From the NCBI GenBank assembly GCA_026874595.1, contig CM049315.1, positions 3,468,664-3,532,663 on the forward strand: 64,000 nt of DNA. The letters are read 5' to 3'. The notes below the pieces were generated by a model that had not been told where the DNA came from, did not search any database, and was given only the letters and a program-made list of their open reading frames with translations. Within the stretch, counting starts at the first letter, position 1, and the number at the start of each line of letters is the position of its first letter. The translations under genes were made by a program, and so were the position numbers. This DNA comes from Sipunculus nudus (Eukaryota; Annelida; Sipuncula; Golfingiida; Sipunculidae). This document shows, piece after piece, positions 34,903 through 64,000 of the stretch.

Positions 34903-36332
34903 GTATCTGCCAAAACAAAGTTTTGCAGATACTATGTTTTTGACCAGGTTCCGCAGCTGCCGCTGCGTTCATTTCCGGAGTACTCCTCTGAGACTACTGG
35001 ACAGATTTTTCCGAAACTTACACCAATTATCGGGTCACATGTGAACTGGTGCCTAACCAATTTGCATTGACCTCTGACCCTTCCTCTCTGCCCAGAGTCC
35101 ATTTGTGTGTCTGTTTCCATACATAAAGCCACATATCTCGGGAACCATTTGACCGATCAGGAAAAAAATGTTGTACAAATTTAGCCCTTGGATAGCTTTA
35201 TAACATACACAAAAAATGACGGCGACACCTGCAACCATGTTTGCACAGTGTCTATCTGTTCATCTGCCTTAGGTTAAAATCACTCATATTTCTGCAGTGG
35301 TTTGACTAATTCACCTGAAATTGGACATCCTGGATAGCTTTCTTGATTTTATGACAGGTGGCGCCACCTACATTCACGTTCACATTGCAGACATCCAAGC
35401 TCACATCTCAAGAACCGTTTAACTGATTGGGCCTAAATTGTGCATGTGTATAGATCTCACATAGCTCTTTATCATACACAAAACTGGTGGCACCACCTGT
35501 AACTATTTTTGCACAGCCTCTTTCTGTTTGTCTGCCATGGGATAATATCACTCATTTCTCAGCAGTGGTTTGACATATCTGCCTAAAATGTTGCAGTTTT
35601 ATACATCCTGGACAGCTTTCTTGATTTTATGACAGGTGGCGCCACCTACATACTAGTTAACGCTGCAGACATCCAAGCTCATATCTCTGGAACCGTTTGA
35701 CCGATTGGGCCAAAATTTTGCATGTGTATAGATCTCACATAGCTCTTTATCATACAAAACTGGAGGGGCCATCTGCAACCATTTTTGCATAGTGTCTGTC
35801 TGTTTGTCTGCCATGGGCTTAAATCACTCATATCTCTGTAGTGGTTTCACTTATCTGCCTAAAAATTTTATGTGTTTATACATCTTGGATAGCCTTCTCG
35901 ATTTTTTTGGCAGGTGGCGCAACCTTCATTTATGTTAACGCTTCAGACATTTAGGCTTATATCTCAGGACTCGTTGGACATGTGTATAGATCTCACATAG
36001 CACTTAATCATACACAAAATTGGTGGCCCCACTTGCCACCATTTTTGCACAAGTCCTTCTGTTTGTCTGCTGTGGGATAAAATCACTCATATACATGTAG
36101 TGGTTTGACTTTTCTGCCTAAAATTTTGCATATGTATACAACTTGTACAGCTTTTTGGATTTGTGGTAGGTGGCACAACCTACATACACATTTATGCTGC
36201 AGACATCCATGCTAATATGCAACACACCTCACTCTATTTCCCCTTGCCAATCAATCCATGCCTCACTTCACCTGTTCAACTCTGATTTTGGCAGATACAC
36301 ATAGTCCCTTGTCGACTACACGTATTCTAGTT
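34903..36332 (+). mobile_element. F3 HINE-like element, full-length copy
   Basis: It starts after TT with the palindrome at 34903-34932 (GTATCTGCCAAAAC paired with GTTTTGCAGATAC around a CAAA core). Several tandem units of about 278 bp follow, containing AACCGTTTGACCGATTGGGC, TTTTGCACAG, TCTGTTTGTCTGCC and GGTGGCGCCACC (perfect at 35357 and 35635, 278 bp apart). The right end has TTGGCAGATAC (36288-36298), the exact reverse complement of the first 11 bases, then a TAGTC..GACTA hairpin and CGTATTCTAGTT. It has no coding capacity. Other copies are at 40425-41076, 42532-43430 and 62940-64000. Confidence 0.75.
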
Positions 36333-37978
36333 CACATTTTTATTTTATTCTGCCACTTTTGTCATCTGATCACAGTCATATTTTTACTGGATGTACCTTG
36401 CTATGGTCTAAGTAGTTTGATTTCGTTTCAGTGACCGTGACCAATTTTTCAGTGTCACAGGAGTCGAAAAGTGTTTTTTTTCTCCAGATTTTCAATATTA
36501 ATTTTCTTCTAAACTATAAGACAAATGGATGAAAAATCATCTGTAATATCTGGTTCCCAACATCCCTGGGGGTATTGATTTGAATTCACATAAGAGCTAG
36601 GTGACTCAGCACTTTTCAGTTACGCTACATTTTCAGATAAATCTTATGACCGAGAAAGTTCAAATCTTTACTGTCATATGCCATTTACAACAGAGTGCAG
36701 TGGCAAGTTTTAGTAGTGATATCTTCAATATTTTTAAATAATATGCAAATTACAAAAATGTGATGTCAGCATTTTCAGCTCATCAGTGAAAGCTCAAAAT
36801 GTAAAGATAACATTTCATTTGTTTTTACTGAATCAGTGGGATAATCAGGGTGGGGCTGGTGGTTGGGAGTAGGGGAGGGGGGGGGGGTTTGGAAGGGGAG
36901 GGAGGAAGGTGGAGATCAAAGAGTGTCCTATGACAGTTACAAGAAGTCTAGTCATTAGTTTGCCATTCTTTTTCTTGAAGAATAGAAATTATCTTTATCT
37001 TAGTTACCTTAATTTTTATCTGTACAAATAATAAAGATAAATATAATTTACAAAGAAATATTTGAACATATTCATTATTCAGCATGAAAAAAATCATGCA
37101 ACACAAATCTGAATTTGTGGGACAGTTAAAACTCTTGAAAGGCAAGTAAAATTTAGAGGTAACTGCTGCCTCACTGGGCAATGGCTCACATGAGTTAATG
37201 CAAGTTCAAGCCCCTGATTCCAGCAGAATATTCATTCTTAAGGACCTACATGGGCATCCTTGATTTATCATTATACATTGCTGGCCTCTTGCCATCTTCA
37301 AGATGGTGATTTTAAGCTTTTTACACCTGTTATTTCATAATTTTGTGAGAGGATTAGATATGTGGTCAGTGTTTCATAATAATTGTATTTAAGTGAACAG
37401 AGATTTTGTGTAACCTTGTATATTGTGTAAATGTTGATAAAAAAAAGACTGAACAGAAGCAGGTAGAGACAAAACACTTTTTTAATAGTTTAATGTCTTT
37501 TAATATTAGCCCAGTAAAAGTGGCTTGCTCTCCCTATAGCACTTAAAATTATTCACTTTTAAAAATAATTTCAAGCATAACACAGAGACAGAAAACAATT
37601 TCATTTATACATGTGCCATAAGAGAAAACCAGGTATAAAATGATATATACTTTATTGGTGCTTTTATAAAATAAAAACAGACAGGGATTTTTGACAAGGA
37701 TGCTACCACAGACAATAAACCTTACTCAATCCACAGTTCTTCTGTAACTGCCTTAGTGGCACAATAACTTGATATGTCATATCATGAATATGCAAATTGC
37801 TCACCTAATCAGAATGAAGTACAGCAAGAAAGGTGCTAAGTGATGTATACCACAATAGGCAATTTGCAGCAATCAGCAAGAACGCCGTACAGGTAAGGCT
37901 GCTGTTTCAAAGACAAATTAGTCTCACTGTGCCTACCTGTGGAAGCTTAAGCTGATGTCATTTGGATACAGTTACAGT
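36333..37978. other. Spacer, possibly the 3' untranslated region of a minus-strand gene at its right edge
   Basis: It contains a purine-rich G tract (36840-36910) and otherwise AT-rich DNA. TTTATT at 37651-37656, read on the minus strand as AATAAA, lies 323 bp beyond the stop codon of the candidate last exon at 37979-38296 and could be its polyadenylation signal. Confidence 0.35.
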
Positions 37979-38296
37979 CTATGTGTATTGATTACCACGT
38001 GGGGCATAATTCAAGGGTGTGGCTCTAAGGCTCTGAGGTACCGCAACGTCTGGTCCACCGTCTCTGCCGTCAGTTGGCTGCTGTTCCACGGGCTTTCTTG
38101 ATGTGTTGTGAATAAGGATCGGATGCATCTCCAGAATTTTTATTTCTCGCTGGTGAGTACAGATATTATCCATCAGAGGCTGATTTCTGTCACGGAGCTT
38201 ACATATATCAAAGGTCTGGTTTTGGAATGGACTGACAGTTTGATGAGCTTTCTCCATCTTTTCAGTTTCTTGATAGATATATTCAGTGAAAGAGGC
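37979..38296 (-). CDS. Probable last coding exon, protein unknown
   Basis: On the minus strand an acceptor (ACTACTCCAG) leads into 105 codons plus TAG, open in phase 0. The peptide starts ASFTEYIYQETEKMEKAHQT, continues with a charged stretch (ICKLRDRNQPLMDN, QREIKILEMHP) that could be helical, and ends in a Pro/Gly/Arg-rich tail (TDGRDGGPDVAVPQ ... LNYAPRGNQYT). The region is clearly richer in GC than both flanks. There is no signal peptide or membrane segment. A minus-strand AATAAA lies 323 bp downstream. Shorter plus-strand frames also exist but are hydrophobic shadows. The small candidate exon at 40190-40237 would lie upstream in the same direction and joins in phase 0. I cannot name the protein. 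Confidence 0.52.
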   Translation of the reverse strand, partial: ASFTEYIYQETEKMEKAHQTVSPFQNQTFDICKLRDRNQPLMDNICTHQREIKILEMHPILIHNTSRKPVEQQPTDGRDGGPDVAVPQSLRATPLNYAPRGNQYT

Positions 38297-38989
38297 CTGG
38301 AGTAGTCATATGCAGTGAGTTAAGAAATTTTTATTAATGTGAATTTTGACATTTGATAGATCTATATTTAATGACATCTGATGCATAAGTTTTCTTAAAA
38401 AATTTGTGTATGTTAAAAAAAATGGGTGTCAGATAAGTGTATACATGTATTCTACTTGCCATGTTTTAGATTTGATACTTCTTAAATTAGAATATGTAAG
38501 AAGTCTTTGAGTTACCCATGCAGACAGTGGAAGTGACCATAATAACAACATTATTCTTTAAAAATACCCAATGGTGACTAACAAAATAACTGCTTTTACA
38601 AGTTAATTTACATCAGTGATTTACTGGCACATTCTGTGACATAATTAAATTTTTTTTTTATTTAATGAATTTTGTGTAATTTTAATGCAGGCATAGTGTG
38701 ATGTGTTCTCTGTTCTTTTAGAGTCCTTATAATTTTTAAAGCTCTTTAAAAAACTGATGAAAAGGTAGAGAACTTTTGACCATCTGATAGTGATGGAATT
38801 GTGGGATTACAGACAATTTCTGCAGATTTCTTTTATTCTTTGAAGAACAGTCTGCTGTTGTACATACTTTTTTCCTTCTCATATTTGCACTTAATTGTCA
38901 ATATATCTAATTTAAGAAAAATGGGTCTTGGTATTATGGTAGTTATTAGTAGCAGTAGCTGACAGATTTACTCCTGATTTATAATTATT
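38297..38989. other. Spacer, possible intron of the minus-strand gene
   Basis: Very AT-rich with long A and T runs; no open frame of note on either strand. Confidence 0.4.
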
Positions 38990-39652
38990 GTATCCCCAGA
39001 CAAAGTCGTATCCCCAGACAAAGTCGGGGGATACCATGTTTTCATACCATTCCCTCCGCCGCCACGCCGCTGCATATAAATCTTGTTGGCGCGATAACTC
39101 AAAAAATATTTCACGGATCTTTACCAAACTTGGTATATGTATAGATATGGATGAGAGGATGACGCCTATTTAAAAAGAGGTCATGACCTTGACTAGGAGA
39201 GTGTCCTTGACCTTGAATATGTCCAATTTGGGGGAAAATCACACAAATTCTTAAATATCTCAAGAAATCTTGCATGGATTGATCCCAAAATCAAGTTGAT
39301 CGAAGATCATGGATAGAGTTGTCAAGTTCCTGAAACTGGTGGCGCCACCTATTATGCTTTTACTTGTTTTCGTGCCGTTTAATACCCCCATCATTGCCAC
39401 TTAACAGTACTGTGAGCATTATAAGTCAAAAACTATCGGACAGATTTCTTTCATATTATGCATATACATAGACATGGGTTATGGGATGATGTATATATAA
39501 ATTGGGGTCATGACCTTTTCTATGAGAGTGACCTTTTCTATGAGTGTGGTCTGATATTAATTGTTGCTGAAGATCGGAGCCTATTCTTAAAGGGGGGGAT
39601 TAATTGTCCGGGGATACTTTGGCACCTGCGGTGCCAAGAAATATCTAGTTTT
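38990..39652 (+). mobile_element. F2 HINE-like element with a duplicated 5' end
   Basis: The first 18 bases (GTATCCCCAGACAAAGTC) are present twice in tandem, at 38990-39007 and 39008-39025, before the palindrome is completed by GGGGGATAC. The interior contains AGGTCATGACCT (39178-39189), TGACCTTGA and one perfect GGTGGCGCCACC (39338-39349). The right end is a G run, ATTAATTGTCCGGGGATAC, the hairpin TGGCACCTGCGGTGCCA and TATCTAGTTTT. One base in the subterminal repeat has changed (GTCCGGGG for GTCTGGGG). There is no coding capacity. Confidence 0.73.
39178..39189. promoter_or_regulatory. Palindromic AGGTCATGACCT in F2
   Basis: Two AGGTCA half-sites are inverted with no spacer, the idealised palindromic thyroid-hormone-type response element. 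The site recurs perfectly at 54530-54541, and as GGGTCATGACCT near 6965, 39506 and 54846. Mollusc receptor binding is not shown. Confidence 0.35.
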
Positions 39653-40189
39653 CAATTAAATTTTTTTCAAAGTCATGACCTACTTAGCCTTTTTTACTAA
39701 TAATTTCATTTAATATAAAACCACATTTGTATCTATGGAGAGTATGGTCCTTAGTATCATTTCATTAGATCAAATAATACTACCCAGAAAAATGAAAGTT
39801 CAAGGTCATACAACCTCCCTCCTGTCGACGTTGGAGTTGCCCAAGAGGAGAGATACTTCCCTTGCAATCACTCAGTGGCTGTAGACCTTTAGTTCATCTG
39901 ATATATTAGCTGACCTTACGAGTTTTAGTCTCTCCACTTTGATGTACACAACCAAGCTTCCAATATGCAGGTTTTAGTCGGTATAGAAAATGGGTTTAGG
40001 GTTTGATAAGTGTGCTGGGGTGGGACTGGAAGTACTCAGAGAACATTGTCCAGGCAGGAATGAATACATTTGGAGAGAGTTTGCATGGTGACAGTGGGAT
40101 GTGTATCAGCGGAATTTGGAGGGAAATCACACTGTTCTGCTAGCATGCCCAAAACTGCAAATTTTAAAAGGATGAGAAAACTGTCTTAC

Positions 40190-40237
40190 CTTAGACAACA
40201 TGTCCATCAAACCTCTGGCAATCTCTGTCATTGGTCT
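40190..40237 (-). CDS. Candidate small internal exon (16 codons)
   Basis: Read on the minus strand, a strong acceptor (TTTGTTTTTTTTTTCAAG) precedes 48 nt reading RPMTEIARGLMDMLSK in phase 0, and a near-consensus donor AAG|GTAAGACAG follows. The peptide would form an amphipathic helix. Its phases fit both the candidate exon at 51649-51717 upstream and the last exon at 37979-38296 downstream. The caveat is that the plus strand is also open across 40070-40279 and reads as plausible protein, so strand choice rests on the two splice signals. Confidence 0.4.
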
Positions 40238-40424
40238 CTTGAAAAAAAAAACAAATATGTAGAGCTCTTCATTATATGATCTCATGTGAAAACTGCAGAA
40301 TCAGCTGATTGAAAAGTGGCTTCTAATGCAGGGAAACAACATTTTATTAATAACAAGGAGTCTAGAAAGAGGTAAAATATATTATACATGGAATCTCTAA
40401 ATAAATAATTGTAAAATGATTGTA

Positions 40425-41076
40425 TTCACACATAAAACCACATATCTTTGGACTTGTTTGACTGATTAGGCTGAAATTTTGCACCAGTGTAGCTTTTGGG
40501 TTGTTCTATATCATGCTCAAAACTGGTGGTGCCACATGCAACAATTTTTGCACAGCATCTATCTGTCTACTGTGACATGAAATCGCTCGTATCTCAGTAG
40601 TGGTTTGACCTATCCACTGAAATTTTGCATATGTATACATCTTGGATAGTTTCTCTTTTAAGTAACAAGTGGTGCCACCTACATTCACGTTCACACTGCA
40701 GACATCCATGCATATATCTCTCCTGACTGGTTTGGTGTATCTTCCTGAAATTTTGCAGGTATTTAGATCTTACATGGCTCTTTATCTTACACAAAATTGT
40801 TTTTCTGCTGTGAGATAAAATCACTCATATCTCGGCAGTGGTTTGACTTATCCACCTGAAATTTTGCATTTGCATATGTATACATCTTTGATAGTTATAC
40901 TTTTAAATAACAAGTGACACCACCTACATTCATGTTTATGTGGCAGACACCCATGCTAATATGCAACACATCTCACTCTATTTCCCCTTGCCACTCAATC
41001 TATGCCTCACTTCTCCGGTCCTACTCTGACTTTGGCAGATACATGTAGTAGCTTGTCGACTACCCGTATTCTAGTT
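40425..41076 (+). mobile_element. F3 element, 5'-truncated copy
   Basis: Internal F3 units (TTTGACTGATTAGGCTGAAA, TTTTGCACAGCATC, GTGGTGCCACCTAC) run without the 5' palindrome and end in TTTGGCAGATAC, a GTAGT..ACTAC hairpin (41045-41063) and CGTATTCTAGTT. The GGTGGCGCCACC sites have decayed here (GGTGGTGCCACC). The left boundary is approximate. Confidence 0.65.
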
Positions 41077-42531
41077 AAAGCTGTATTTGGTTGTCATTCC
41101 TATGTGCAGTTTAAAAAAAAAGTATACAGAAATACAAGATTTTCTGGAAATCAAAGCTTTTCAAAAGTGGACATGGGCCATAGTACTGATGAATATAATG
41201 GGTGCTGAAATGTCATGCTGTGTCAGTTAAGGAGTGAAAATGAAGGAAAATAATAAAACATACAGTGAATTGTCATTCATCCTGAATTCATGAATCTAAC
41301 TGCCAAGTGATAATTTTTTTTTTAAATATTTTTTTGTTGGAGGTTACCACCCCATTTTTAGCGAACCTGTGAGCTTATGTGATGGTGCTGCGTCGTCCGT
41401 CGTGCGTCGTGTGTTGTGCGTTGTGTGTCATCTGTACGTTAACCATAGCTAATATGCAACAGCAGGAGCTAGCCTCCCCAATTTTTTGCAAATAATCAGT
41501 CATCCAAAAAACTATATCAGATTTTATTTATTTTTTCTAACTCCATTTTCTTAGATTTTATAGGGAAAAAACTAAAAATGCTTTAAAAATCTTCTTCTGC
41601 AAAACTTTCCAGCCAAAATGTCCAATATTTCACAGAAATGATCCTTGGAACAATCTTTCTCAAGTTTGTTTGAATGGTTCCAGTTCGGAGATTTTTGGCC
41701 GAGTTACAGGAGGTTGAACTTTGTTAATTGTGCAAAAAAGCATATTAAAATTTAAATCTCAGAAACGGCTGGAGCTATCATCATCAAATTTTATGCCAAT
41801 GTTGGTCACATAGGTCATATCTGAAATTGAGGTATTGGTGGCGCCAGCTGCATCGGCCTTTTTTGTACGGGGTCATCAGTGCCTGTATCACACTGAGGGC
41901 TACAAAAAACTTCTTCTCTGAAACCATATGGCCAAAATGTTTAATATTGCACAGAAATGATCCTAGGGTAGTGCTTTCTGAAGTTTGTTCAAATGGTCTC
42001 TTTTCAGTGACTTGTGGCTAAGTTATGGGAAGCTGAATTTAGTCATATGCCATAACAGCCCATTTTAGCTCAGTGGCTACAAAGATCTTCTTCTCAAAAA
42101 CCACTGGGCCAAATTCTTTAATCTCATACATTAATTATCCTCAGATGTTGATAATTCAAGTTTTCAGCCAGGTACAGGTCAAAAGTTCACTCAGTCTATC
42201 CAGGTGCAGGTAAAGAGTTCACTCAGTGCAGTAGCTTGAGGCAGCAATTTGTCACAGGTCACTCAGGGGCAACTGCCTTATTCACCTAGGCCTTGTCAGC
42301 CCAGTGCATCAAACTCTGGGAAAGTTTGATGTATTGGACTGATATTTTGACCTGTCTATGCGTCTTTGATGGTATTCTTATTTACAAGACAGATGGTGCC
42401 ACCTACATTGACTTCTGCAGTGTATGTGCCTGCTTATTTCTAAGGAGGGGATTGACATATCAGTCTGACATTGGGCATATTTATATATCTCTTTGTTGTA
42501 TATAAGACTAGTGGTACCAGCTACAATCATT

Positions 42532-43430
42532 GTATCCACCAAAACAGAGTTTTGCGGATACAATGTTTTCAGTCAGACGCCGACACTGCAGCCATCGCCG
42601 CAAAGGTTTCCGGAGAACTCCTCCATAACCACTGGGCAGAATTTTTTAAATTTGGAATTATGATCGTTCACATGTGAACTGCTGAGCCCTCATTTTTGGT
42701 TGACCTCTGACCTTTCCTCTCTGCTCAGCGTCCATTTGTGCGTCTGTTTCCACACATAAACCCACATATTTCGGGAACCGTTTGACAGATAAGGCTAAAG
42801 ATTTTGCACAAATATAGCCCTTGGAAAGCTATATAACGTACACTAAAAATGGTGGCCCCACCTGCAACCATTTTTGCACAGCATCCATCTGTTCATCTGC
42901 TTTTGGGATAAAAGCATTCATATCTCGGCAGTGGTTTGACTTATCCACCTGATATTTTGCAGGTTTATACATCCTTGACAGCTTTCTTGTTTTATGACTG
43001 GTGGCGCCACCTACATTCAAATTTAAGCTGCAGACATCCAAGCTCATATCTCAGGAACCATTTAACTGATTTGGCAAAAAATTTGCATGTTTATCGATCT
43101 CACTTAGCTCTTGATCATACTCAAAACTTGTGGCGCCACCTGCAATCATTTTTGCTCAGCATCCGTCTGTTTATTTGCCGTGGGATTATATTACTTATAT
43201 CTCGGCAGTGGTTTGACATATCTGCCTAAAATTTTGCAGGTTTATACATCTTGGATAGCTTTCTGGATTTTGTGGCAGGTGGGGCCACCTACATTTATTT
43301 ATACGCTGCAGACATTCAGGCTCATATCTCAGGACTGGTTTGACATATCCCTCTGAAATTTTGCATGTGTATATATCTCACAAAATTGGTGGTGCCACCT
43401 GCCACCATTTTTGCACAGCATCTGTTTAGT
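42532..43430 (+). mobile_element. F3 element, 3'-truncated, nested in older F3 and F5 sequence
   Basis: The 5' palindrome at 42532-42561 (GTATCCACC.. / ..GCGGATAC) follows ACAATCATT. The sequence before it (about 42330-42531) is itself decayed F3 interior, where an intact unit would read ACAATCATTTTTGCACAGC, so one F3 appears to have entered the T tract of another. Units carry GGTGGCGCCACC at 43000 and near-matches at 43130 and 43279. No F3 right end is present. Confidence 0.62.
42701..42713 (-). promoter_or_regulatory. Perfect DR1 motif in F3
   Basis: TGACCTCTGACCT is AGGTCAGAGGTCA on the minus strand. The equivalent position in other F3 copies reads TGACCTCTGACCC at 35068-35080 and TGACCTCTGACCT at 63097-63109, so the motif is part of the family. 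Confidence 0.38.
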
Positions 43431-43559
43431 GTTTAGTACTTGCATTGTTCATATACATGTTACACTTGTTCTTGAAAAGTAATGGTCCAGCATTGAAGCA
43501 TTATACCTGGTGTAATGTCGTTGCACAGGTTCGCATTAGGCCTGTAGGCCTTGTTTTTA

Positions 43560-43912
43560 ATGCTAGCTTAACTAAGGATATGTACATCTGCAGATTTCCA
43601 TTCCGGTTTCGGACTACATGACAGGGCAGTATCACACGCTTCCTCTCATTTTATATCCTGGCGTTAACCAGGCCCAGTGACTTCTGCACCTGCGGGCCCT
43701 GGGTTGGTAATTATCCCACTGAGGACCCTGGAAAGGCGCATTTGTTTGTGAGTGAAATACGGCCGTTGGGCACGACCTTCCCATTAAGCCTGCAGAGTGC
43801 TCACCCTGGGTTGGGGCCGACCATGAAAAACCTCGCCGCCTCGGCTGAAATTCGAACTCACGATCTCCCGGCTTTGAATCTTGCGCTCTACCCCTGAGCC
43901 ACAGAAGCCGGT
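43560..43912 (-). mobile_element. tRNA-derived SINE
   Basis: Read on the minus strand, the head from about 43910 begins CCGGCTTCTG and contains an A-box-like TGGCTCAGGGGTAGAGC (43885-43901) and a B-box-like GAGTTCGAATTTC (43847-43859), the internal promoter of RNA polymerase III tRNA-derived SINEs. A GC-rich body follows (GGTCGGCCCCAACCCAGGGT, AACGGCCGTATTTCACTCAC). The whole 350-bp block is much richer in GC than its surroundings. The tRNA-like head cannot fold as an intact tRNA. The left edge abuts the right end of the F5 element and is approximate. Confidence 0.72.
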
Positions 43913-44636
43913 TGATAATTTTATGATCTGTCTTTATATTATTTTGTAAAAGTAATTTATTTTAGTGCTTGCATATACAAGTATAAACTCTGTCACCCAA
44001 TTGTTTGGGTAATTTGGTGTTGGACTGAAAATATTTAATTCCTGGTGAAAGTGATATACCAGTATATATGTTATCTTCTGTTTGTTACTGGTAAATTTAA
44101 TGCCTTTTCTCAGCAATTTTTTTAGGTACATGCCAAAATCACCATAGGAAAATCAGTCAAAATCGAAGCAAAAGTATATATATTGTTTTAGAAGCATAAA
44201 TAACCTTTAAAGGTCAGAGGACCATTGAAGAATTTGTTCAGTACCACATCATGCACTGTTGGTTTTTAAGTCACTTAGATAGGGTCCTGGTACAGCCCGG
44301 ATGGATGCTCTTTAGGTTAAAGGTCAACAGTATCTGGTTCTGACTGGTCATTCTATATTATTGCTGATTGGCTGATATTCACTCCCTCTCTCTGCCAGTG
44401 CTTTACTGCGCATGTTCAAAACCTTAATCGTTACCCCAGTGCTGCATCACTGGTCATCCAGCTCCTGGCTTCCAGCAGAACCAGTCGCCACCTCCCATCC
44501 TCCACCCATTGTGTGTATATAAATTATTAATTTGCACTTGTTTGTAATAAGCCTCCTTAACGCTTGTGCGCCATTTTAGAATTCCCCCCATCACTTTTAT
44601 CACATGTGCTTTGTCCACTTTGTATACATGTATATA

Positions 44637-44843
44637 TGTTGTGATGTAGTTAAATTGGCGGTGCTCCTCTTAAATCTGTTTCAGTTGTTGTATGTTATGC
44701 ATCAGCATCCAGGCCATCAAACCAAGGACTCTGTGTATAAAGACTTTTGAGTCTCAGACTGGATTGTAGACTTGTGTTATGGCACTGCCAAGTATTATTT
44801 CATATTTCTTAGGTCATTTTAATAAATGACATTATAGACAACA
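44637..44843 (+). mobile_element. Possible solo LTR
   Basis: The stretch begins TGTTGT and ends ACAACA (6-bp inverted termini), with TATAAA at 44736-44741 and AATAAA at 44821-44826 in the order expected of an LTR. No target-site duplication is visible and no LTR partner or internal retroelement region is present. It could equally be a 3' gene end or chance. Confidence 0.2.
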
Positions 44844-45560: not shown

Positions 45561-45958
45561 CACTTTTTTTTACTGCATTTAAAATATTGCAGTTCTGAGG
45601 ATATTTGGCAGAGAAGTGCATGCTTTATGTATCTTTAATGTATAAACCATATGGTGTACACAGGGTTCCATCTTCTATATCAATATCAACAGTATGACAA
45701 TAGACAGTGATACCTGAAAAAAAGTAATACCAGCGCACTTACTTGAAAAGGAATGAAATGGTGATTATAAATAGGTTCATATCCAGGTAACATGAAGTAA
45801 TATTGTGACATTATAAATCATGCAATGAAGGCATTGGTATTACTAATAATCCAGACTAGCCCTCTCACCTGGTTTCTGACCTTGTGAACCACATGAACAT
45901 GAGTGGTAAGAGTCCAGGTGTATGATGTGGCTTATCTGATGAAGTAGCATACAGCTGT

Positions 45959-46667
45959 CTGAAGATGCTGGTGGCTGGGCAGTTTAAACAGACTGATACA
46001 TTACTTACACAATATAAGAACCCTGGATTTGTAATTAATACACCTGAAGTAAATAAGGTACATGTATGATGTTGAGGTACACATGTAAGGTACAGATAGA
46101 AAGAAAAAAAATCCCCCCTGTTATAACTCCTTGACACTCATAAGACATGATCACTGGGGGTGTGGGGGCTAAAATCATTGTTGGCGCACAGAATGTCAGT
46201 TAACTGCTCCTATTTGTAACTATCTGTTACATTTTCTGCAAAGTGTGGGCTGCAGTGTACAAGGTTCTGATAATAAGAGTGTAAATATTCCATAAAAAAT
46301 TATAGGAAATTATAACCACAATCAGTACTGATTAGCAGTATACCCATAATATAATGAGGCGACCTCTGAAATCTTTGGTTCATTGTGTACGTAAAATGGC
46401 AGCCCCATGAGCAGTTTTGAGAAACCGGGAGAAATAAACCTGTCAGGGTTTAATATGGGCATGGAATGATGGGGATTCAACACAAAAGTACTCCAAGGCC
46501 CAACCATTTCATTTAAAATATTAATTGTTTCATAATTGTATTTCAAAGATGTGATAAATTTAATGCTTGTCCTGAATGTAGCACATGTAACTGACAAATC
46601 CAGGGTTCTTATATTGTGTAAGTAATGTATCAGTCTGTTTAAACTGCCCAGCCACCAGCATCTTCAG
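45959..46667. repeat. Perfect 74-bp inverted repeat around a 561-bp spacer
   Basis: 45959-46032 and 46594-46667 are exact reverse complements over 74 bp (starting CTGAAGATGCTGGTGGCTGG). Identity stops abruptly on both sides. The right arm runs into the 57-bp array, whose units share its last bases (CTTCAG). A minus-strand frame in the spacer (46322-46597, containing MPILNPDRFISPGFSKLLMG) is open for 91 codons but does not resemble a transposase I know. It may be a fold-back or TIR element, or an inverted duplication made during array formation. Perfect arms indicate recent origin or conversion. Confidence 0.85.
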
Positions 46668-47480
46668 TCAATGCATATAGATCCCTAGTATGACAGCAAG
46701 GTTATGGGCCCTGTTCCCCTGCAGTCTCTGCATTAAGATCCCTAGTGTGACTGCAAGGTTATGGGCCCTGTTCCCTTCAGTCAATGCATATAGATCCCTA
46801 GTATGACAGCAAGGTTATGGGCCCTGTTCCCCTGCAGTCTCTGCATTAAGATCCCTAGTATGACAGCAAGGTTATGGGCCCTGTTCCCCTGCAGTCTCTG
46901 CATTAAGATCCCTAGTGTGACTGCAAGGTTATGGGCCCTGTTCCCCTTCAGTCAATGCATATAGATCCCTAGTATGACTGCAAGGTTATGGGCCCTGTTC
47001 CCCTGCAGTCTCTGCATTAAGATCCCTAGTGTGACTGCAAGGTTATGGGCCCTGTTCCCCTGCAGTCTCTGCATTAAGATCCCTAGTGTGACTGCAAGGT
47101 TATGGGCCCTGTTCCCTTCAGTCTCTACATTAAGAGCCCTAGTGTGACTGCAAGGTTATGGGCCCTGTTCCCCTGCAGTCTCTGCATTAAGATCCCTAGT
47201 GTGACTGCAAGGTTATGGGCCCTGTTCCCTTCAGTCTCTGCATTAAGATCCCTAGTGTGACTGCAAGGTTATGGGCCCTGTTCTCCTTCAGTCTCTGCAT
47301 TAAGATCCCTAGTGTGACTGCGAGGTTATTGGCCCTGTTCCCCTTCAGTCAATGCATATAGATCCCTAGTATGACTGCAAGGTTATGGGCCCTGTTCCCC
47401 TGCAGTCTCTGCATTAAGATCCCTAGTGTGACTGCAAGGTTATGGCCCAGTTCCCTTCAGTCTCTTCATTAAGACTCCTT
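46663..47480. repeat. 57-bp minisatellite, about 15 units
   Basis: The unit contains ATCCCTAGTGTGACTGCAAG, GTTATGGGCCCTGTTCCC, CTGCAGTCTCTGCATTAAG. ATCCCTAG or close variants recur at 46681, 46738, 46794, 46851, 46908, 46965, 47022, 47079, 47135, 47192, 47248, 47305, 47362 and 47419. Two unit types alternate irregularly: one with TGCAGTCTCTGCATTAAG and one with TTCAGTCAATGCATATAG. Confidence 0.95.
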
Positions 47481-54113: not shown

Positions 54114-54529
54114 CTATTACAGGACATTTGTTCATACTCAGTATTAAGTAAAATGCTTACGGTCTACACCACTGGAATAATACACCTCTCAGGAAGAATG
54201 CGGTCAAGATCAGTCCCAGACAGCAAAATGAATGTTTAAAGATTTGATAATTGAAACAAAAATAAAGAATAGGTTCATGAATGTTAGGTAACTAATATTG
54301 ATAGACTTATATTGAATAAGAAAGTAACCACAACATGAGAATGATAGCATTATTGTATTTCCCAGACAAAGTTGGGGGATACATGTTTTCATGATGCCTC
54401 CGCTGCCCCCACCCCATATAAATCTTGTTGGCGCGATAACTCAAAAAATATTTCACGGATCTTTACCAAACTTGGTATATGTATAGATAATGGTGTGAGG
54501 ACGACGCCTATTTAAAATGAGGTCATGAC

Positions 54530-54541
54530 CTTTTCTAAGAG
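54530..54541. promoter_or_regulatory. Palindromic AGGTCATGACCT in F2
   Basis: A second perfect copy of the zero-spaced inverted AGGTCA pair seen at 39178, at the same place in the F2 body. It shows the motif is a family feature. Confidence 0.35.
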
Positions 54542-55136
54542 AGTGTCCTTGACCTTGAATTGTTCCAGTTTTGGGTAAAATCACACAAATTCTTTAATAT
54601 CTCAAGAAATCTTGTATGGATTGATCCGAAAATCGAGTTGATCGAAGATCATGGATAGGGTTGTCATGTTCCAGAAACTGGTGGCACCACCTATTATTCT
54701 TTACTTGTTTTTGTGCCTTTTGATACCCACAAAATTGCCACTTGACAGTACTGTGAGCATTATAAGTCAAAAACTAATTGACAGATTTTTTTTATATTAT
54801 GCATATACAAAGATATGGGTTATGGGATGATGTTTCTTAAAATTGGGGTCATGACCTTTCCTATGAGAGTGGCCTTGACGTTAAATATTCCCATATTTGG
54901 TGAAATTCACACGAAATCTTTAATATCTCAGTAAGGGATACATGGAATGATCCAAAAACAAATTGACCGAAGATCTTAGATAACTTTGTCTTTTGCAGAA
55001 GACAGGTAGCACTACCTTGTGTCGTTTTCTTGTTAAAATAATGTTAACGCAATAACTTTGTAAGAAACCCACAGGTTTGATGCATCTCATCAACGGCTAG
55101 GTCAAGTTTGAATATGGAAGACCTTGATGCATTTTT

Positions 55137-57768
55137 AGCTCAGCTGACTATAAGTCATCTGAGCTATAGTCGTGGTCCATTGTCCGTCGTCCGTCTGTCT
55201 GTCCGTCCGTCCGTCCGTCCATCCGTCCGTCCGTCCGTAGATGTGGCACGTTTTGAAACCGTAAGACCTAGGAATCCAAAATTCGGCATAATGTTAGATG
55301 TCCCCAAGATCTCCTACCAAGCCGAAAATTGGGTCTTTGCAACTTCGTTTCTTTGAGAAATTAAGGAAAAACCTCAATTTTTTATTAAAAACCTATTTTC
55401 ACACTTCAGGACTGCCTAATATCAAAACCACTCATCTGTTTTTCCTCATTTTTACCATAAATATTTCTCTATATATTTCCTATGTACATGCCAAAAATTA
55501 TGTCTGTATTATTTAATTTAAAAAAGTTATGGGCCCAAACATAATGCTTTTTGTAAAAAATCAGGAAAGATATTTGATCACTAAACACAAAACATGTTAA
55601 AGCTATGGACCTTTTTTCCAGTAATATAACTTTAATAAATCAAAATTAAATTGTACACCCAAAATTAGATGAAAATCTTTTAAATTTTTTAAAATATTAA
55701 TAAAAATAAAAAATTGGTACCTTAAATTTTGCCCAACTTTGACCATGGCACGTTTTTTTCCTGTAAGTACTGTGGATTTAATTTTCACAGCATGTTTTTG
55801 TTATCTTTTCAACTGTTAACACCAAAAATTTGAAACCAGTTGATCAAAAACTGTAGATTTTATTCAAGTTTTCAAGCACCATGTAACATATTGTTTACAT
55901 CGAGCTAGTGTTATGCAGTTTGCAAGGACTCAGCTCCCCAGCTTCAGCTCTTAGTTCCTTAAATTCGGCATACAGCTAGATGTCTCCAAAATCCCCTACC
56001 ATGCCAAGAATTTGGTCACTAGGACTTAATACCTTCAAGATATTAATGAAAAACTTCATTTTTCCATTAAAAACCCATTGTTACACTTCAAGACTGCCTA
56101 ATATCAAAACCACTGATCTGACTTTAATCATAAATAATATACATATTTTTCATTCTCTATGCACATGCCAGAATGATGTCAGTATTGCGTAATTGTTTTA
56201 AGTTATGGGCCCAAACATAATGCACTTTGTAAAAAATCAAGAAATATATTTACTCCCTTAACAAGGGCATTGCTGAAGCTAGAGATTTTTTTGTCAGGGA
56301 TGTAACATTATTTAATCAAGATTCAATTGAATACCCAAAATTAGTTCTGAATTTTTCAAATTTTATAAGTTATTAGTATAAATATAAAATTAGTACCTTA
56401 AATTTTGCCCAACTGTGACCACGGCACGTTTGTGTCCTGTGAGCACTGTTGATATAATTTTTATATCATGCACACATTAGGATTTCAGCTTTTTAGTTTA
56501 GAGAGCTGAAAGAAATTGGCCAAAAATTGAAGCTTTTATTAATGTTTTTTATGAGACCCTGTCAGACTTTGGCTCTCTCCAGCCCCTCTTGAGTCACCTG
56601 TATGTTGACCTTGTTGACCTTTCATCAAATTATGCACGCTTGAGGCGAGGCATACAGGAATCCAGGCAGCTTATGGCCAGCCACAGTTGATCCAGGTGTC
56701 CAACCCAACTCATCTAGTAGTTTTAACCAACAACATAACAATAAACAATAAATTAATAAATTTTTATTGGTTTTTAATAACAAATTTAAGAAAAATAGTT
56801 GTTAGTTTATAATAACAGGAAATTAACTTGCAGTTACTATGATATAAGAATCTTGTATCGATGGGTAGAATGTCACATATTCCAAATAACACCATGCGAT
56901 CACCTATGGCATTTTTCAGTTCAATTTTAATAATAAAGAAGTAAATCATATTATTCATTACTAATCATTAGGGATCATATGAAGGAAATTAATGATAGAC
57001 AAAGATGCAGTTGATAATATTAATCTAGATTCCTACTGTGTCTAGTGTGTACATTGATGTGAAATTAGTCCAAAATGAATTTTTTACAGTTATTTTTTAA
57101 TATAAATAAAAGCCATAAAACCAGGTACATATGATCATTATTTAAATGTGTGAATTTTGTATATTCTGGATTCTCAACATCATTGGTTGGTGAAACTGAA
57201 TAAATACCAGACATGGTGCGAATACTTTGTAATTGTATTTAAATACGAATATGATTAATACTCCATTATAAAATTTCTTGCATAAAGAATAGGAATTCAG
57301 GTAAAAATGAAAGTATATGAATACTCGTGCAAATACTTTCAAAATGTATTCATGAATGCATTCATGAATATATTCTTTAATATTATTTTAATAATCATAT
57401 CAGTTATATTTCATTTAAAAAATCATATGATTCTCTTATTATTTTTTATAAAAATTATATTTGGGACAATATTTGTAATTTTTTTAATAAATAGGTAAAC
57501 TCTTATATTATATGTTCTGCTAATAAGTTATATGGCCAAGTCAAAATCTGTGTGACAATAGTACTCCATTTGTTAATAAAATAAATGAAATCAATCCTCT
57601 TCCCTGTCTCCAAAGGTACTAACAAAATCATACATAAGTTAAACAACAACAACTCATAATACAGCTTATATATTATTACCACACAAAACCAGCATGTGCC
57701 TCATTTCTAAATAATATTTTTTTATCATATATAACAGCTGAGCGTCGTGACCCATAGGTCCCTTGTTT
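55137..57768 (+). mobile_element. F1 HINE-like element nested in F2
   Basis: The left flank is GATGCATTTTT and the right flank CAAGGTCACAGCAG. The uninterrupted F2 unit reads GATGCATTTTTCAAGGTCAC at 57904-57923, so the element entered the T tract with no duplication beyond ambiguous T bases. The left end has the F1 palindrome and a CCGT microsatellite (55181-55240). The right end has CAGCTGAGCGTCGTG, the hairpin GACCCATAGGTC (one mismatch) and CCTTGTTT. Internal blocks match 177-3299 closely (for example near 55260-55560 and 360-600). Confidence 0.78.
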
Positions 57769-58374
57769 CAAGGTCACAGCAGTGATTATGCTAAAATGAT
57801 ATTAGGGCAATAACTAAAAAAGAATTTGTGGTACAGTGACCAAACCTACAGTTTAGATGCATCTTATCAAGGGCTAGGCCAAGTTCGAATATGGATGACT
57901 TTGATGCATTTTTCAAGGTCACAGAGGCAATAACGCTGAAATGATGTTAACTATAATATCTCACTGAGGGATGCATGGATTGGTCCAAAAATCAAATTGA
58001 CATAAGATGTTTGATAGCATTGTTTTCTGCAGAAGACAGGTGGCGCCACCTTATGTTGTTTTCTTGCTAAAATGATGTTTAAACAGAATAACTTTGTAAG
58101 AATTTGAGGTACAGTCACCAAACCCACAAGTTGGATGCATCTTATCAACAGCTAGGTCAAATTTGAACATGGACGACCTTGATACATTTTTTCAAGGTCA
58201 CAGCAGCGATAATGTTAAAATGAAATTACGGCAATAACTCCAAAAAAAATTGTTGGTACAGTCACCAAACTTACAGGTTAGATGCATCTTATCAAGGGCT
58301 GGGGAGTGGGGGGGGGGGGGGGTTAATTGTCTGTGGATACTATGGCACCTGCGGTGCCAAGAAATATCTAGTTT

Positions 58375-60911
58375 TGATAAATAGAATGATAAGGTTTTCT
58401 ATGTAATGGGAATTGTGATCTGTAATTTTGACAGGAGATTTCAGGTTCATTTGAAATTTCATTATTTTATTTTGTATTGTTCTTCAGTTCTGAATTCCAA
58501 GCTGTGTCCTTATCTGCCCACCCACACCAAAAAAAAACATTACTGTTGTTTAAGTAAGCTTGTATATTCATGATTATAAACTGAAAAAAATTTGTCAATA
58601 TATGCAAAGTGTTAATTACAGATGATGTTGAAGCTGTAGCAGTTACAATATTTGTTAAAGCTGCAGTAAGGTCATAAAGTCATAGTCAGAGCAGGAATCA
58701 CAGATATCGCAAAGGATTTACAGTTACAGCTTGAGACAGTTCCAAAGTTGGAGTCACACCTTATATACTGGAGTCACAGTGATCAAAGCTGGAGTCTTAA
58801 TTATCACAGATTAGGTTACAGTTGCCTTTTGATCCATGCAGTTTAATAACTGGATTGGTGGCAAATATTGCTCCGCTTTTTCTACACTAAGAATCATGTA
58901 AACATGGGTATTTGACATCTAGGAGACACCACTCTTTTGAAGCATGATGAAGAGGACTTTTAGTGTAAATGATGTAACAGGGTGCCCTAAATATAGATGC
59001 TTTAGTATCAATCCTTTGAGGTCAGAAGAACCTGGATCGTCGTTTAAAAAGAACCTACCTGTCTTTAAACCTATACATATGTACTTCATCATTTATCTTT
59101 TATCCTGCACCTGCAGAGCTCCCACCAGCTCCTATATTTCCTATGAAAAAAATGTCTCTTTATAATTTCCTATATTTTTTTATATTTAGACTGTAATATC
59201 CCATATTTTTCCATATATTTTTTCAATGCATAACTGTGCTTCCATTATAATTTCCTATATTTTTTAATTGCCAATTTGTGCAATGTAATGATATAATTAG
59301 ATATTATTGTTATCTAAACCCATGATATGATACAGTCAAGGGTAATATTTCCCAGCAACTCCTGTTTCCTTCAATTCATGTCCAGCTATCATCACAATAC
59401 AACATGACTTTTAAACTAAACTTATTGTCTAAAACCCAGTCATATTGACAAAGAAACCTGGCTTCGAGAGTTTCCAAATAAAATGAAAAAACACTGTCAG
59501 GTAAAATTCTTGAACTGACAATGAGAACCACAGTATTTATATTCTCAATTAAAGAAAAAGCACAAGTCATAGCATTTACATTGAGTTATGTAGAAATCTT
59601 GTATTCCATGCCCCTTTTATGTATTTACAATTAAGAACTGCCATTCATATTTAATAATCAGGGAATGTTCATTATTTTTTTATAGTTCTGTGTCTACATG
59701 GTGATCCATCATGAATGAAAACTTGTGATTAATGATTGGTGGCTGTAATTGGCTGTGCACTTTACTGTAGGTGGACAAGTTATGTCTGAAACAATCTTTC
59801 ATAGTGAAGCCAGGAATGTGCTGGTTGTCTCATGGGCTCTGGTGATGTCTGTATCCTCATACATCAATGACAAATATAATCAGTGGACACAGCTTAAGTT
59901 GTCACCAGAATTGTAAGAAAGAGCAGTTTAGAACTCCAGCCATTTGAATATTTCTTTCAAGAAAATAAAATAAAATTTTGATACAATTATTTCCCTTTGT
60001 TAAGTTGTGCATTTACCTGTTTTGAAAAACATTAAAGTTATCATGTTTGGCATGATCATATGAAATTTTGACAAAAAAAAAACAAAAATGAAAAAGAACT
60101 AACAAAACCTCCTGCCAACACTGATTTCTCTAAAAGGTTATTTGTCTGTGTCAGAATTTTACAATTTAGGAGCAGATAATTCAGTCTATTGTTAATTTTT
60201 CCTTAAGGACAGATCTGGTTTCCTCATCTGTTAGTATTCTCATTTTAGTTTGATTGGACCGTCCTTTAACTGATGCCTGAGCAGTTGAGAACATATCTCC
60301 ATGTTGAGATCAGCATCACCTGATGCAGCAGATATTGTGTGTAGTCAGTTATCATGATTTCCCTGGTCATTCTTTAGGTTTTTTCTTATATACCTTGGTA
60401 ATCGTGAAGCCCTTGGAACCATTATAAACTCTTTTAAAGGAGATATTCTTTTTCTTTAGGTCTTATGAAAATTACACTGATTACTCTATTTTTAACTCTT
60501 TTTAGTTGAAGAATTTTTAGATCTACCAGTAAAATATTCTCCCTTATTTGATTCCTTTTAGAACAAAAATGTGACACTTCAACAATATTGTTCTGAGCAA
60601 GCATCCAGCATGTATCACTTCATGTTTAAAAAGCCCTTATCATCTTATGCAGGCAGTTCTATCATGCACATTTCCGACTCAGTTTCTGAGCTCTTCATTC
60701 TGTGATGTAAAGCAGGGTGGTGAGTGGTCAGTTCAGGCCTGCAACTCTTTTTAAAAAGAGTCACTCTTTTTCACTGAAAATTACTGATTTACTGAAAATG
60801 ACACTAATTACCCTTTTTTTTTACTCTTTTTAGTTGAAAAATTTTAAGATCTAATATATTCCCCTGTTTTTAATTCCGTTTAGAACAAAATGGGACACTT
60901 CAACAATTTTT
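58375..60911. other. Spacer with one doubtful open frame
   Basis: Mostly AT-rich. A plus-strand frame at 58944-59165 begins MMKRTFSVNDVTGCPKYRCF and looks protein-like for about 45 codons, after an acceptor-like CTCTTTTGAAG, but then runs into the CCTATATTTCC simple-repeat block and has no donor. At 60460-60550 and 60770-60860 a pair of blocks share AAAATTACACTGATTACTCT and TTTTTAGTTGAA phrases, an old duplication. Confidence 0.3.
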
Positions 60912-62939
60912 AGCTCAGCTGACTGAAAGTCATCTGAGCTATAGCGATCACTCTTTGTCTGTCGTCCGTCTGTTAGTCCGTCTGTCCGTCCGTTAACCAG
61001 GCACAAATCGTAACCGCTGGACCTAGAACCTTGTAACTTAGGATTCTGAGAGGTCCATTAAAAATCTCCATGGAAACCAGAAATTAGGTCTCTGTTACCA
61101 ATATCCTTTGAGCTGTGGGGCCCCAAAGTACCCCCCCAGAAAAGTAAAAAATTTCATACAAAAACTTCAATATCTCATTAACTACTTGACTGATGGTCAT
61201 GATTTTTGGCATACATATTGATCATGAGATGTTACATCACTTCCTGCAGACTGGTGGCGCCACCTGTATTTTTCGATTTTTTACGAATTTTCTTCTCTAT
61301 TTTTGAGAACTTTAAAATGTGAACATCTGTTAGCGTGGCACAAATCGTAACGACTAGACCTAGAATCTTCATTTTCAACACACCAAGAGACCTATGAAAA
61401 GTCTCCATGGAAACCAGAAATTAGGTCTCTGTTACCCATATCCTTTGAGCTATGGGGCCCCAAAGTACCCCCCCAGAAAAGTAAAAAATTTCATACAAAA
61501 ACTTCAATATCTCATTAACTACTTGACTGATGGTCATGATGTTTGGCATACATATTGATCATGAGATGTTACATCACTTCCTGCAGACTGGTGGCGCCAC
61601 CTGTATTTTTCGATTTTTTACAAATTTTTTTCTTTATTTTTGAGACCTTTAAAAATGTGAACATCTGTTAGCGTGGCACAAATCGTAACGACTGGACCTA
61701 GAATCTTCATTTTCCAAACACTGAGAGACCTATGAAAAGTCTCCATGGAAACCAGAAATTAGGTCTCTGTTACCCATATCCTTTGAGCTATGGGGCCCAA
61801 AAGTACCCCCCAGAATAGTCGAAAATTTCATACAAAAACTTCAATATCTCATTAACTACATCACTGATTGTCATGATTTTTGGCATACATATTGATCATG
61901 AGATGTTTCATCAGTTTCTGCAGACTGGTGGCGCCACCTGTATTTTTCAATTTTTACGAATTGTTTTCTCTATTTTTGAGACCTTTAAGAATGTAGTTAT
62001 CTGTCAACAGGGTACAAATCGTAACGACTGGACCTAGAATCTTCATTCTTGACACACAGGGAGACCCATGATAAGTCTCCATGGAAACCTGAAATTAGGT
62101 CTCTGTTACCCATATCCTTTGAGCTATGGCACTCCAAAGTAAAGCTCAGAATAATGGAAAATTTGATACAAAAGCTAAAGTATCTGAACAACTAATGCAG
62201 AGATAACCAAAATTGTTTGCATGGATATTGATCATGGAGTGTTTCATCAGTTTCTGCAGACTGGTGGCACCACCTGTATTTGTTTGGGTGTTTTAACGAA
62301 ATTTTTCTCAATTTTTGAGACCTTTAAAGATATGAACATCTGTTAACAGGGCACAAATAAAAAAAAACTGGACCTAGAAACTACTTTCTTGAAACACAGG
62401 GAGACCCATGAAAAGTCTCCATGGAAACCTGAAATTAGGTCTCTGTTACTCATATCTTTTAAGCTGTATGGCTCCAAAATACCCCCCAGGAATGGAAAAT
62501 TTGATACAAAACTGCAGTATCTCAATAACTAGAACACTGATGGTCATGATTTTCGGCATACATACTGATCATGAGCTGTTCCATCAGTTTCTGCAGACTG
62601 GGTGCGCCACCTCTATTTTTTTTCAAATTTTTACGAATTTTTTCTCTTTTTTTTTGAGACCTTTAAAGATGTGGTTATCTGGACCTAGAATCTTCATTCT
62701 TGTCATGCAAGGAGGCCCATGAAAAGTGCCTGTGGAAACTTGAAATTAAGTCTCTGTTACCCATATCCTTCAAGCTATAGGACTCCAAAGTATCCCTCAG
62801 AATAATGGACAATTTGATACAAAAGCTGAAGTATCTGAACAACTAATGCAGAGATCGATCACCATGATTCTTTGCATGGATATTGACCATTTAGTGTTTT
62901 TATTAGTTTCTGCAGACTGTTGGAGCCACCTGTATTTTT
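60912..62939 (+). mobile_element. F1-headed element with 337-bp tandem units
   Basis: After TTTTT an F1-type palindrome (AGCTCAGCTGACTGAAAGTC..) and CCGT microsatellite (60957-60995) lead into tandem units about 337 bp long. Each unit includes AATCGTAACGACT, TCCATGGAAACCAGAAATTA, GTCTCTGTTACCCATATCC, CTGCAGACTGGTGG. GGTGGCGCCACC is perfect at 61253, 61590 and 61927 (exactly 337 bp apart) and decays in later units (62263, about 62600, about 62920). The interior is unlike the other F1 copies, so only the head is shared. The array is cut by F3 at 62940 and no right end is seen. Frames at 61997-62722 are shadows of the repeat. Confidence 0.7.
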
Positions 62940-64000
62940 GTATCTGCCAAAACAAAGTTTTGCGGATACTATGTTTTTGACCGGGTTCCTCCGCCGCCGG
63001 TTTCCAGAGAGCTCCTCGGAGACTAATGGACCGATTTTTCCGAAACTTACATCAATTATCGGGTCACATGTGAACTGGTGCCTAACCAATTTGCGTTGAC
63101 CTCTGACCTTTCGAAATTCCTCTCTATCCAGTGTCCATTTGTGGGTCTGTTTTCACACATAAACCCTCATATCTCGGGAACCATTTGACCGATTAGGAAA
63201 AAAATTTTATATAAATGTAGCCCTTTGATTGCTTTATAACATACAAAAAAATGGTGGTGCCACCTGTAACCATGTTTGCACAGTGTCCATCTGTTCATCT
63301 GCCTTGGGTTAAAATCACTCATATCTCTGCAGTGAATTGACTAATTCAACTGAAATTTGTCATGCGTATACATCCTGGATAGCTTTCTTGATTTTATGAC
63401 AGGTGGCGCCACCTACATTCACTTTCACGCTGATGACATCCAAGCTCATATCTGGGGAACCGTTTGACCGATTGGGCCAAAATTTTGCATGTGTATAGAT
63501 CTCACATAGCTCTTTATCATACGCAAAACTGGTGGCGCCACCTGTAACCATTTTTGCACACCATCTGTCTGTTTGTCTGGCGTGGGATAATGTCACTCCT
63601 ATCTCGGCAGTGGTTTGACATATGTGCCTAAAATTTTGCAGTTTTATACATCCTGGACAGCTTTCTTGATTTATGACAGGTGGCGCCACCTGCATACTAG
63701 TTTATGCTGCAGACATCCAAGCTCATATCTCGGGAACTGTTTGAACGATTGGGCCAAAATTTTGCATGTGTATATATCTCTCACATAGGTCTTTATCATA
63801 CACAAAACTGGAGGGGCCACCTGTAACCATTTTTGCACATTTTGCACAGCGTCTGTCTGTTAGTCTGCCGTGGCCTAAAATCACTCATTTCTCTGTAGTG
63901 GTTCGACATAACTGCCTAAAATTTTGCAGGTTTATACATCCTGGACAGCTTTCTTGATTTTATGACAGGTGGGGCCACCTACATTCTAGTTAACGCTGCA
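62940..64000 (+). mobile_element. F3 HINE-like element, runs off the window
   Basis: The 5' palindrome (62940-62969) directly follows GCCACCTGTATTTTT. The sister 337-bp units read GCCACCTGTATTTTTCGATT, so the insertion is in the T tract. Body units carry GGTGGCGCCACC at 63402, 63531 and 63679 and a perfect DR1 at 63097-63109. The right end lies beyond the window. Confidence 0.75.
63097..63109 (-). promoter_or_regulatory. Perfect DR1 motif in F3
   Basis: TGACCTCTGACCT, the reverse complement of AGGTCAGAGGTCA, sits at the same place as in the other F3 copies. Retention as a perfect site in two of three copies is noted; binding is inferred. Confidence 0.38.

Follow-up and report, generated by a model that had tools for sequence, protein, structure and literature searches.

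A conserved palindrome within a module shared by HINE-like repeat families of Sipunculus nudus

In a 64,000-nucleotide stretch of the genome of Sipunculus nudus (assembly GCA_026874595.1, contig CM049315.1, positions 3,468,664 to 3,532,663 of the forward strand; hereafter the window, with its first letter as position 1) a 12-bp palindrome, GGTGGCGCCACC, recurs inside several repeat families, labelled F1, F2, F3 and F5, whose bodies had appeared dissimilar. The question raised by this locus is how the same short palindrome came to reside in such different surroundings. In keeping with a eukaryotic source, the window is rich in tandem and dispersed repeats, and its CpG is depleted (532 observed versus 2211 expected). 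The eleven perfect copies listed in the first-pass annotation were all found in place (35357, 35635, 39338, 43000, 58039, 61253, 61590, 61927, 63402, 63531 and 63679), as were its near-matches at 41837, 43130 and 62263, the second of which starts at 43129 with an 11-base match from 43130. With 11 one-mismatch and 8 two-mismatch sites the total comes to 30, against 0.37 expected (standard deviation 0.58; maximum 2 in 100 shuffles), a strong excess over shuffled sequence for this window. Perfect palindromes with a length of 10 bp or more and at least 40% GC are also numerous (55 versus 28.8 expected; standard deviation 7.5; maximum 46 in 20 simulations); the core GTGGCGCCAC is present in 12 of them and GGTCATGACC in 5.

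The exact form of the motif was read from 32 sites, a set that omits a decayed site near 40912. The base directly 3' of the palindrome is T in 32 of 32, so that the true conserved string is the 13-mer GGTGGCGCCACCT; the base directly 5' is T in 20 sites and A in 12. More than half of the substitutions (17 of 33) fall on the central CpG, and a single site, GGTAGCACTACC at 55005-55016, shows a symmetric double change, with the outer dyad intact.

A comparison of the families provides the first part of the answer: the motif forms the 3' box of an old module of about 95 bp. This module is common to F1, F2, F3 and F5 and makes up the core of the internal repeats in the first three, F5 being represented by the module only, with neither head nor ends established in the window. 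The module starts with an ATATCTC-type box, continues with a freely diverged stretch of nearly fixed length and ends in the slot that holds the palindrome. From box start to motif start the distance is 83 bp in F1, in the F2A half-units, in F3, in the copy at 58039 (F3b) and in F5, and 80-81 bp in most intact F2B half-units, which align with the other families after a 2-bp shift. The ungapped 95 bases upstream of the motif show pair identities of 0.38-0.51 among F1, F2A, F3, F3b and F5, and 0.62 between F3 and F3b, against a dinucleotide-shuffle background of 0.27-0.29; the lowest pairs are F3-F5 (p=0.04) and F3b-F5 (p=0.02). In 15-bp bins (means over 14 of 15 pairs, F3-F3b omitted) the upstream stretch from -90 to -1 is 0.36-0.61 identical and the motif 0.97; identity is 0.41 immediately 3' of the motif and 0.21-0.34 farther out on both sides, the background being 0.27.

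Profiles that were trained without the motif and without the tested family, and then run over the window, usually pointed to the same slot. With F1 left out, the slot fell exactly on the motif in all four matches below E=1, and with F5 left out it did so in the single forward match (E=0.004). Without F2 it lay at most 3 bases from the motif in 15 of 21 matches, five of them exact. Without F3 there were nine matches, three with exact motif-type slots (55005, E=0.14; 39338, E=2.1; 54680, E=5.7) and six with a GGTCATGAC palindrome in the slot. Taken together, the profile results refute the notion of unrelated bodies that carry the same motif. Indeed, upstream identity, bins and profiles agree that the families, which the first-pass annotation had described as otherwise dissimilar, are distantly homologous, with a register that is nearly fixed, and convergence upon one motif in unrelated bodies was ruled out because the module is common to them. 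The copy at 58039 is no unit type of its own; it belongs to the right-hand portion of an F3 element split by an F1 insertion.

The conservation of the motif has two faces. Between families it is pronounced: in four representatives (F1, F2A, F3 and F5) identity is 0.96 in the motif versus 0.45 in the rest of the module, and none of 20000 column shuffles contained an equally good 12-column window. The next best separate window is the upstream box (0.74), which ranks second to the motif within the module. Inside a family, by contrast, the motif for the most part decays no differently from adjacent sequence, and the losses fall chiefly on the central CpG. More specifically, its conservation is matched or beaten by 57 of 118 windows in F2A (7 half-units) and by 75 of 314 in F1 (6 units); F2B (9 half-units) is the exception, with the motif within the top 3 of 138 windows (in these counts the F2 arrays enter without their first half-units, and the copy at 40.4-41.1 kb is omitted). 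The proposed excess over the flanks thus holds between families but mostly not within them, and descent from one ancestral repeat holds for the module, on the strength of homology and profiles, whereas at the family level the motif is not accounted for by ordinary decay. The motif CpG was retained in 12 of 22 unit positions versus 27 of 63 other consensus CpGs (gaps counted as lost); this is no clear difference and gives no sign that the CpG is protected by binding or by methylation state. From this pattern we infer that the motif was probably conserved in the parental lineages and underwent largely ordinary decay after insertion.

Several observations weigh against this account. For the pairs F1-F3b, F3-F5 and F3b-F5 another offset scores equally well or better, so that not every pair has a unique register. 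The four representatives were picked for carrying the motif, which leaves its excess open to ascertainment. Some of the leave-one-out matches are weak, as the E-values for 39338 and 54680 show, and the copy at 58039 was missed by the profile trained without F3. A reverse-strand match without a slot (422-357, E=3.3e-4, profile without F2) lies inside an F1 element; profile E-values therefore have to be read with care. Weaker module-like matches, with no palindrome in the slot, occur in a further family, F4, and in the long F1 body, and one F3 copy (6601-7118) has no motif module at all. The signal for a first module within the 337-bp unit of F1 is weak (score 52 versus 40.4; standard deviation 5.7; maximum 56 in 300 shuffles).

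The slot does not always hold the same palindrome. The F3 modules with boxes at 39094, 39421, 54436 and 54762 carry GGTCATGACC there, with a centre 1 bp away from where the motif has its own. In two of them the palindrome extends to the 12-mer AGGTCATGACCT, and the remaining alternative slots of F3 retain its inner 10 bases or fewer. The exact 12-mer, at 39178 and 54520, is that of the IR0 hormone-receptor element in the passages of PMC4074170 covered; the likeness here is one of sequence letters only. A tentative extension, which we hold to be possible, is that the module carries an exchangeable 3' palindromic binding site (a 'landing slot'), filled by GGTGGCGCCACC in several families and by AGGTCATGACCT in some F3 modules. 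Selection in the mobile lineages would keep the slot while single copies decay, and the elements might seed protein-binding sites across the host genome. Other palindromes were observed as well: in F2, the left flanks of three copies contain a conserved TCACATGTGA (35035-35044, 63064-63073 and, as GTTCACATGTGAAC, 42666-42679), out of register with the module, and TGGGGCCCCA occurs in the first half of the 337-bp units of F1 (61116-61125 and 61453-61462).

The module, its slots and the elements of these families are listed in Table 1.

Table 1. Module, slot and host-element coordinates in the window
Feature	Position	Strand	Details
Example module	61170..61264	+	ATATCTC box; motif 61253-61264, 83 bp downstream (start to start)
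F5 module	41744..41848	+	One-mismatch motif GGTGGCGCCAGC at 41837
Alternative slot palindrome AGGTCATGACCT	39178..39189	+	F3; also 54520-54531; inner GGTCATGACC at 6969, 39506, 54847
F2, most complete copy	34900..36332	+	5' hairpin head 34903-34932; central half-unit sites 35357, 35486, 35635, 35762, 35913, 36022, 36169; inverted head copy 36285-36298; ATTCTAGTT 36324-36332
F2 copy without 5' head	40421..41076	+	Decayed sites 40525, 40668; like 3' end 41029-41042, 41068-41076
F2 copy	42529..43440 (end approximate)	+	Head 42532; sites 42851, 43000, 43129, 43278, 43388; 3' end not found
F2 copy	62940..64000	+	Begins in T-run of F1 array, leaves window; sites 63253, 63402, 63531, 63679, 63810, 63968
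F1-headed element	60911..62939	+	Hairpin head 60911-60941; GTCC-type microsatellite; 337-bp unit array, shortened by F2 copy; sites 61253, 61590, 61927, 62263, 62600, 62919
F1, long body without motif	55136..57768	+	Nested in T5 run of F3, T-run boundaries ambiguous; near end, 3' inverted copy CAGCTGAGC and dyad GACCCATAGGTC
F3 element	38990..39652	+	Head 38990-39034, first arm duplicated; GGTCATGACC slots 39179, 39506; motif 39338; inverted copy 39606-39617; dyad 39621-39635; end ATCTAGTT 39643-39650
F3, left part	54349..55135	+	GGTCATGACC slots 54521, 54847; motif variant 54680; GGTAGCACTACC 55005; split by F1
F3, right part	57769..58375	+	Perfect motif 58039; inverted copy 58329-58340; dyad 58344-58358; end ATCTAGTT 58366-58373
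F3 copy without motif module	6601..7118	+	Alignment to 39008-39650 skips 39252-39407; GGTCATGACC at 6969, variant near 6764

Judging from their sequence, F1 to F3 are built like Helentron-associated non-autonomous elements (HINEs). Hairpin heads are present in F1 (176, 55136, 60911), F2 (34903, 42532, 62940), F3 (6601, 38990/39008, 54371) and F4 (9673). F2 begins with GTATCTGCCAAAAC-AAA-GTTTTGCAGATAC and closes with an inverted copy and ATTCTAGTT; F3 begins with GTATCCCCAGAC-AAA-GTCGGGGGATAC and closes with an inverted copy, the dyad GGCACCTGCGGTGCC and ATCTAGTT; in F1 the opening TAGCTCAGCTGAC and its inverted partner lead into a GTCC-type microsatellite, and the element closes with CAGCTGAGC and a GACCCATGGGTC-type dyad. 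An inverted subterminal copy lies near the 3' end of F2 (36285, 41029) and F3 (7074, 39606, 58329), and CAGCTGAGC fills this place before both F1 3' ends that were read. The 3' dyads are GGCACCTGCGGTGCC in F3, GACCCATGGGTC and GACCCATAGGTC in F1 and, by eye, a short one in F2. GTCY-type microsatellites follow the F1 heads and none were seen after those of F2 and F3. One clear case of insertion into T-rich sequence without target-site duplication is found: the F1 element 55136-57768 sits within a T5 run of F3, and the paralogous sequence is uninterrupted at 57901 and 58179. An autonomous Rep/Helicase partner is not visible in the window, and a Pfam scan of 19 of the 28 open reading frames of at least 90 amino acids detected no Rep or helicase.

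Two further stretches touch on this anatomy. F4 (9673-10943) has a hairpin head like F1-F3, followed by a 179-bp array, and its 3' end and inverted copy were not found; the slot predicted in it by profile reads GTCCCAGTTGAC, which falls short of a perfect palindrome. At 32102-32152, GGGATACTATGG is followed by ATTCTAGTT, which resembles the 3' end of a further F3-related element.

The rest of the window holds a 47-bp minisatellite (18544-27050, 8.5 kb, about 181 copies, 93% alike), a 39-bp minisatellite with open reading on both strands (32358-33769, about 36 copies) and a 77-bp inverted repeat (45956-46032 and 46594-46670, 98.7% identity, about 560 bp apart) that directly precedes a 57-bp tandem array (46665-47474). 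The open reading frames 32405-33292 and 32874-33641 were the only ones in the Pfam scan to score above the cut-off; both lie in the 39-bp minisatellite, and the matches were taken as artefacts. One open reading frame compared with solved structures gave no match, and known RNA families were absent from the window at gathering score and from 60900-64000 up to E=1.

A comparison with described HINEs is in line with the assignment of F1 to F3. According to the passages of PMC4067079 covered, HINE/DINE-1-like elements share with them a 5' subterminal repeat with an inverted partner, a 3' inverted copy and a 3' dyad, as well as internal repeats and insertion in T-rich sequence. They differ in that a palindrome in fixed register in the internal repeats is not described in those passages, and F1-F3 have no visible autonomous partner. 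Features of this anatomy are given for HINEs in PMC4067079 and PMC7492417; a GTCY-type microsatellite in the left flank is common among HINEs and not obligatory. In the Pacific oyster, otherwise dissimilar HINE monomers carry two common conserved segments, and the Cg_HINE elements resemble ours in these segments and, for F1, in the GTCY/GTCC microsatellite after the head (PMC7492417). Their monomers measure about 166-168 bp, versus a module spacing of 161, 166, 165 and 161 bp from box to box in F3 and a unit of 337 bp in F1. A common 12-bp palindrome is not described in the passages of that paper covered, and the likeness of its segments to the present boxes is one by description only.

In bivalves, the diverged monomers of the BIV160/Cg170 repeats, about 160-170 bp long, likewise retain two conserved motifs; in DTC84 a palindrome is conserved close to the junction of the repeats (PMC5139131). 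This group, with Pearl, is similar to the present families in the two conserved boxes and the F3 spacing of 161-166 bp; the F2 half-units (129 and 149 bp) lie beyond the 160-170 bp range. Kinship with BIV160 was not detected with two primers compared against the window (best 17 of 25 and 14 of 21 bases; shuffled maxima 16-17 and 14-15). Further oyster background is given in PMC11136912 and PMC7348941. Thus, the element class and dissimilar HINE monomers with common short segments were already known from oyster. What is new, for one window and the open-access papers searched, is the palindrome in fixed register across families together with the alternative palindrome in its slot. A description of such a slot was not found among the matches listed for Helentron, satellite, bivalve repeats, the CTCF-like core and GGTCATGACC. 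Among 5.39 million papers searched, the 12-mer itself matched one, on an endochitinase, and oligonucleotide matches in the passages seen of PMC7883824 and PMC13083895 were irrelevant.

In sequence collections, the gapped module pattern matched one viral contig (L001) with an 18-base similarity; the module profile found nothing at that place (best elsewhere E=0.21), and the match was therefore taken as chance. Two other viral scans gave nothing; in a bacterial contig (L002) a string of 19 bases occurs two times, with no module around it. As these collections are viral and prokaryotic, absence from them says little about animals.

The explanation that we favour, with moderate confidence, is that of an old HINE module in which the motif serves as a protein-binding site that active lineages of the elements have conserved. 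A passive relic is a rather unlikely alternative: the module would go back to one satellite-like monomer, and the palindrome would be a functionless survivor, helped by homogenisation of the arrays and by attention to the families that carry it. The common descent of the module, seen in identity, bins and profiles, fits this reading as well, and so do the unremarkable decay of the motif within F2A and F1, the similar retention of its CpG and that of other consensus CpGs, and the F3 copy without the module. However, such a survivor fits less well with the contrast between motif and module in the four representatives, which no shuffle equalled, and with the different perfect palindrome that occupies the slot in other F3 modules. 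A recombination or amplification junction, where monomers were joined or exchanged, is improbable. It is true that homology across families ends shortly after the motif, and that in the clam repeat phBglII400 most junctions lie in a 12-bp palindrome, to which the junction-near palindrome of DTC84 may be added (PMC5139131). Yet the F1 array meets F2 because the latter begins in a T-run directly behind the last motif, the ends of the F2 arrays lie close to the upstream box and not at the palindrome (as read from the sequence, without statistics), and the conserved motifs of BIV160/Cg170 have no statistical link to junctions in the passages of PMC5139131 covered. The shared junction suggested by the first-pass annotation is for these reasons not favoured.

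Hardly more probable than a junction is an insulator site of the CTCF type, by which the elements would carry sites for a host chromatin-architecture protein. The minus strand of the motif reads AGGTGGCGC, a CTCF-like core. The CTCF consensus is CCASYAGRKGGCRSY, and in a scan of 17 of the 32 sites eight score 12 of 15 on it, a score of at least 12 being found at 25 positions of the window; the other nine score 11, which is reached by 202 window positions. The sites contain the core, but conservation does not extend to the upstream half of the consensus, and CTCF sites are not known to be palindromic. A published HTLV-1 CTCF-site probe contains the string AGGTGGCGC too, as does an oligonucleotide for the CTCF site upstream of EGR1. 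Of the zinc-finger match raised in the first-pass annotation only the core could be recovered; with 11-12 of 15 the full consensus is a partial match. The least probable explanation is that a hairpin or cruciform is kept in single-stranded rolling-circle intermediates or in RNA. A perfect dyad within elements of rolling-circle-type anatomy would suit such a role, but the motif has no loop spacer, whereas the head hairpins have 3 to 9 bases between their arms and the F3 3' dyad has 3. Moreover, paired changes are not in excess (1 observed versus 1.4 expected in 32 sites), on which ground selection for a hairpin or cruciform was rejected. The missing spacer, the lack of excess paired changes and the invariant T outside the dyad together favour a protein that reads duplex DNA over a hairpin.

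Protein binding is thus a plausible but unproven reading of the motif. The motif would most likely act in duplex form, with a symmetric or zinc-finger protein bound to it, and this protein may come from the host or from an autonomous partner of the element. Such a protein could help the transcription or replication of the element or its access to chromatin, and tandem repetition would multiply the sites. Selection on active parental elements, and not host selection at each copy, would keep the motif.

The role of the internal repeats of HINEs is not explained in the passages of the HINE descriptions covered, and the motif offers a short, directly testable candidate binding site within them. 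Even if it were not bound, the case would still show common descent behind a motif of seemingly unrelated repeats. A motif that is fixed between families and decays in inserted copies would allow host selection to be told apart from selection in the mobile lineage. Should a chromatin protein or a hormone receptor of the host bind it, the elements would be carriers of regulatory sites.

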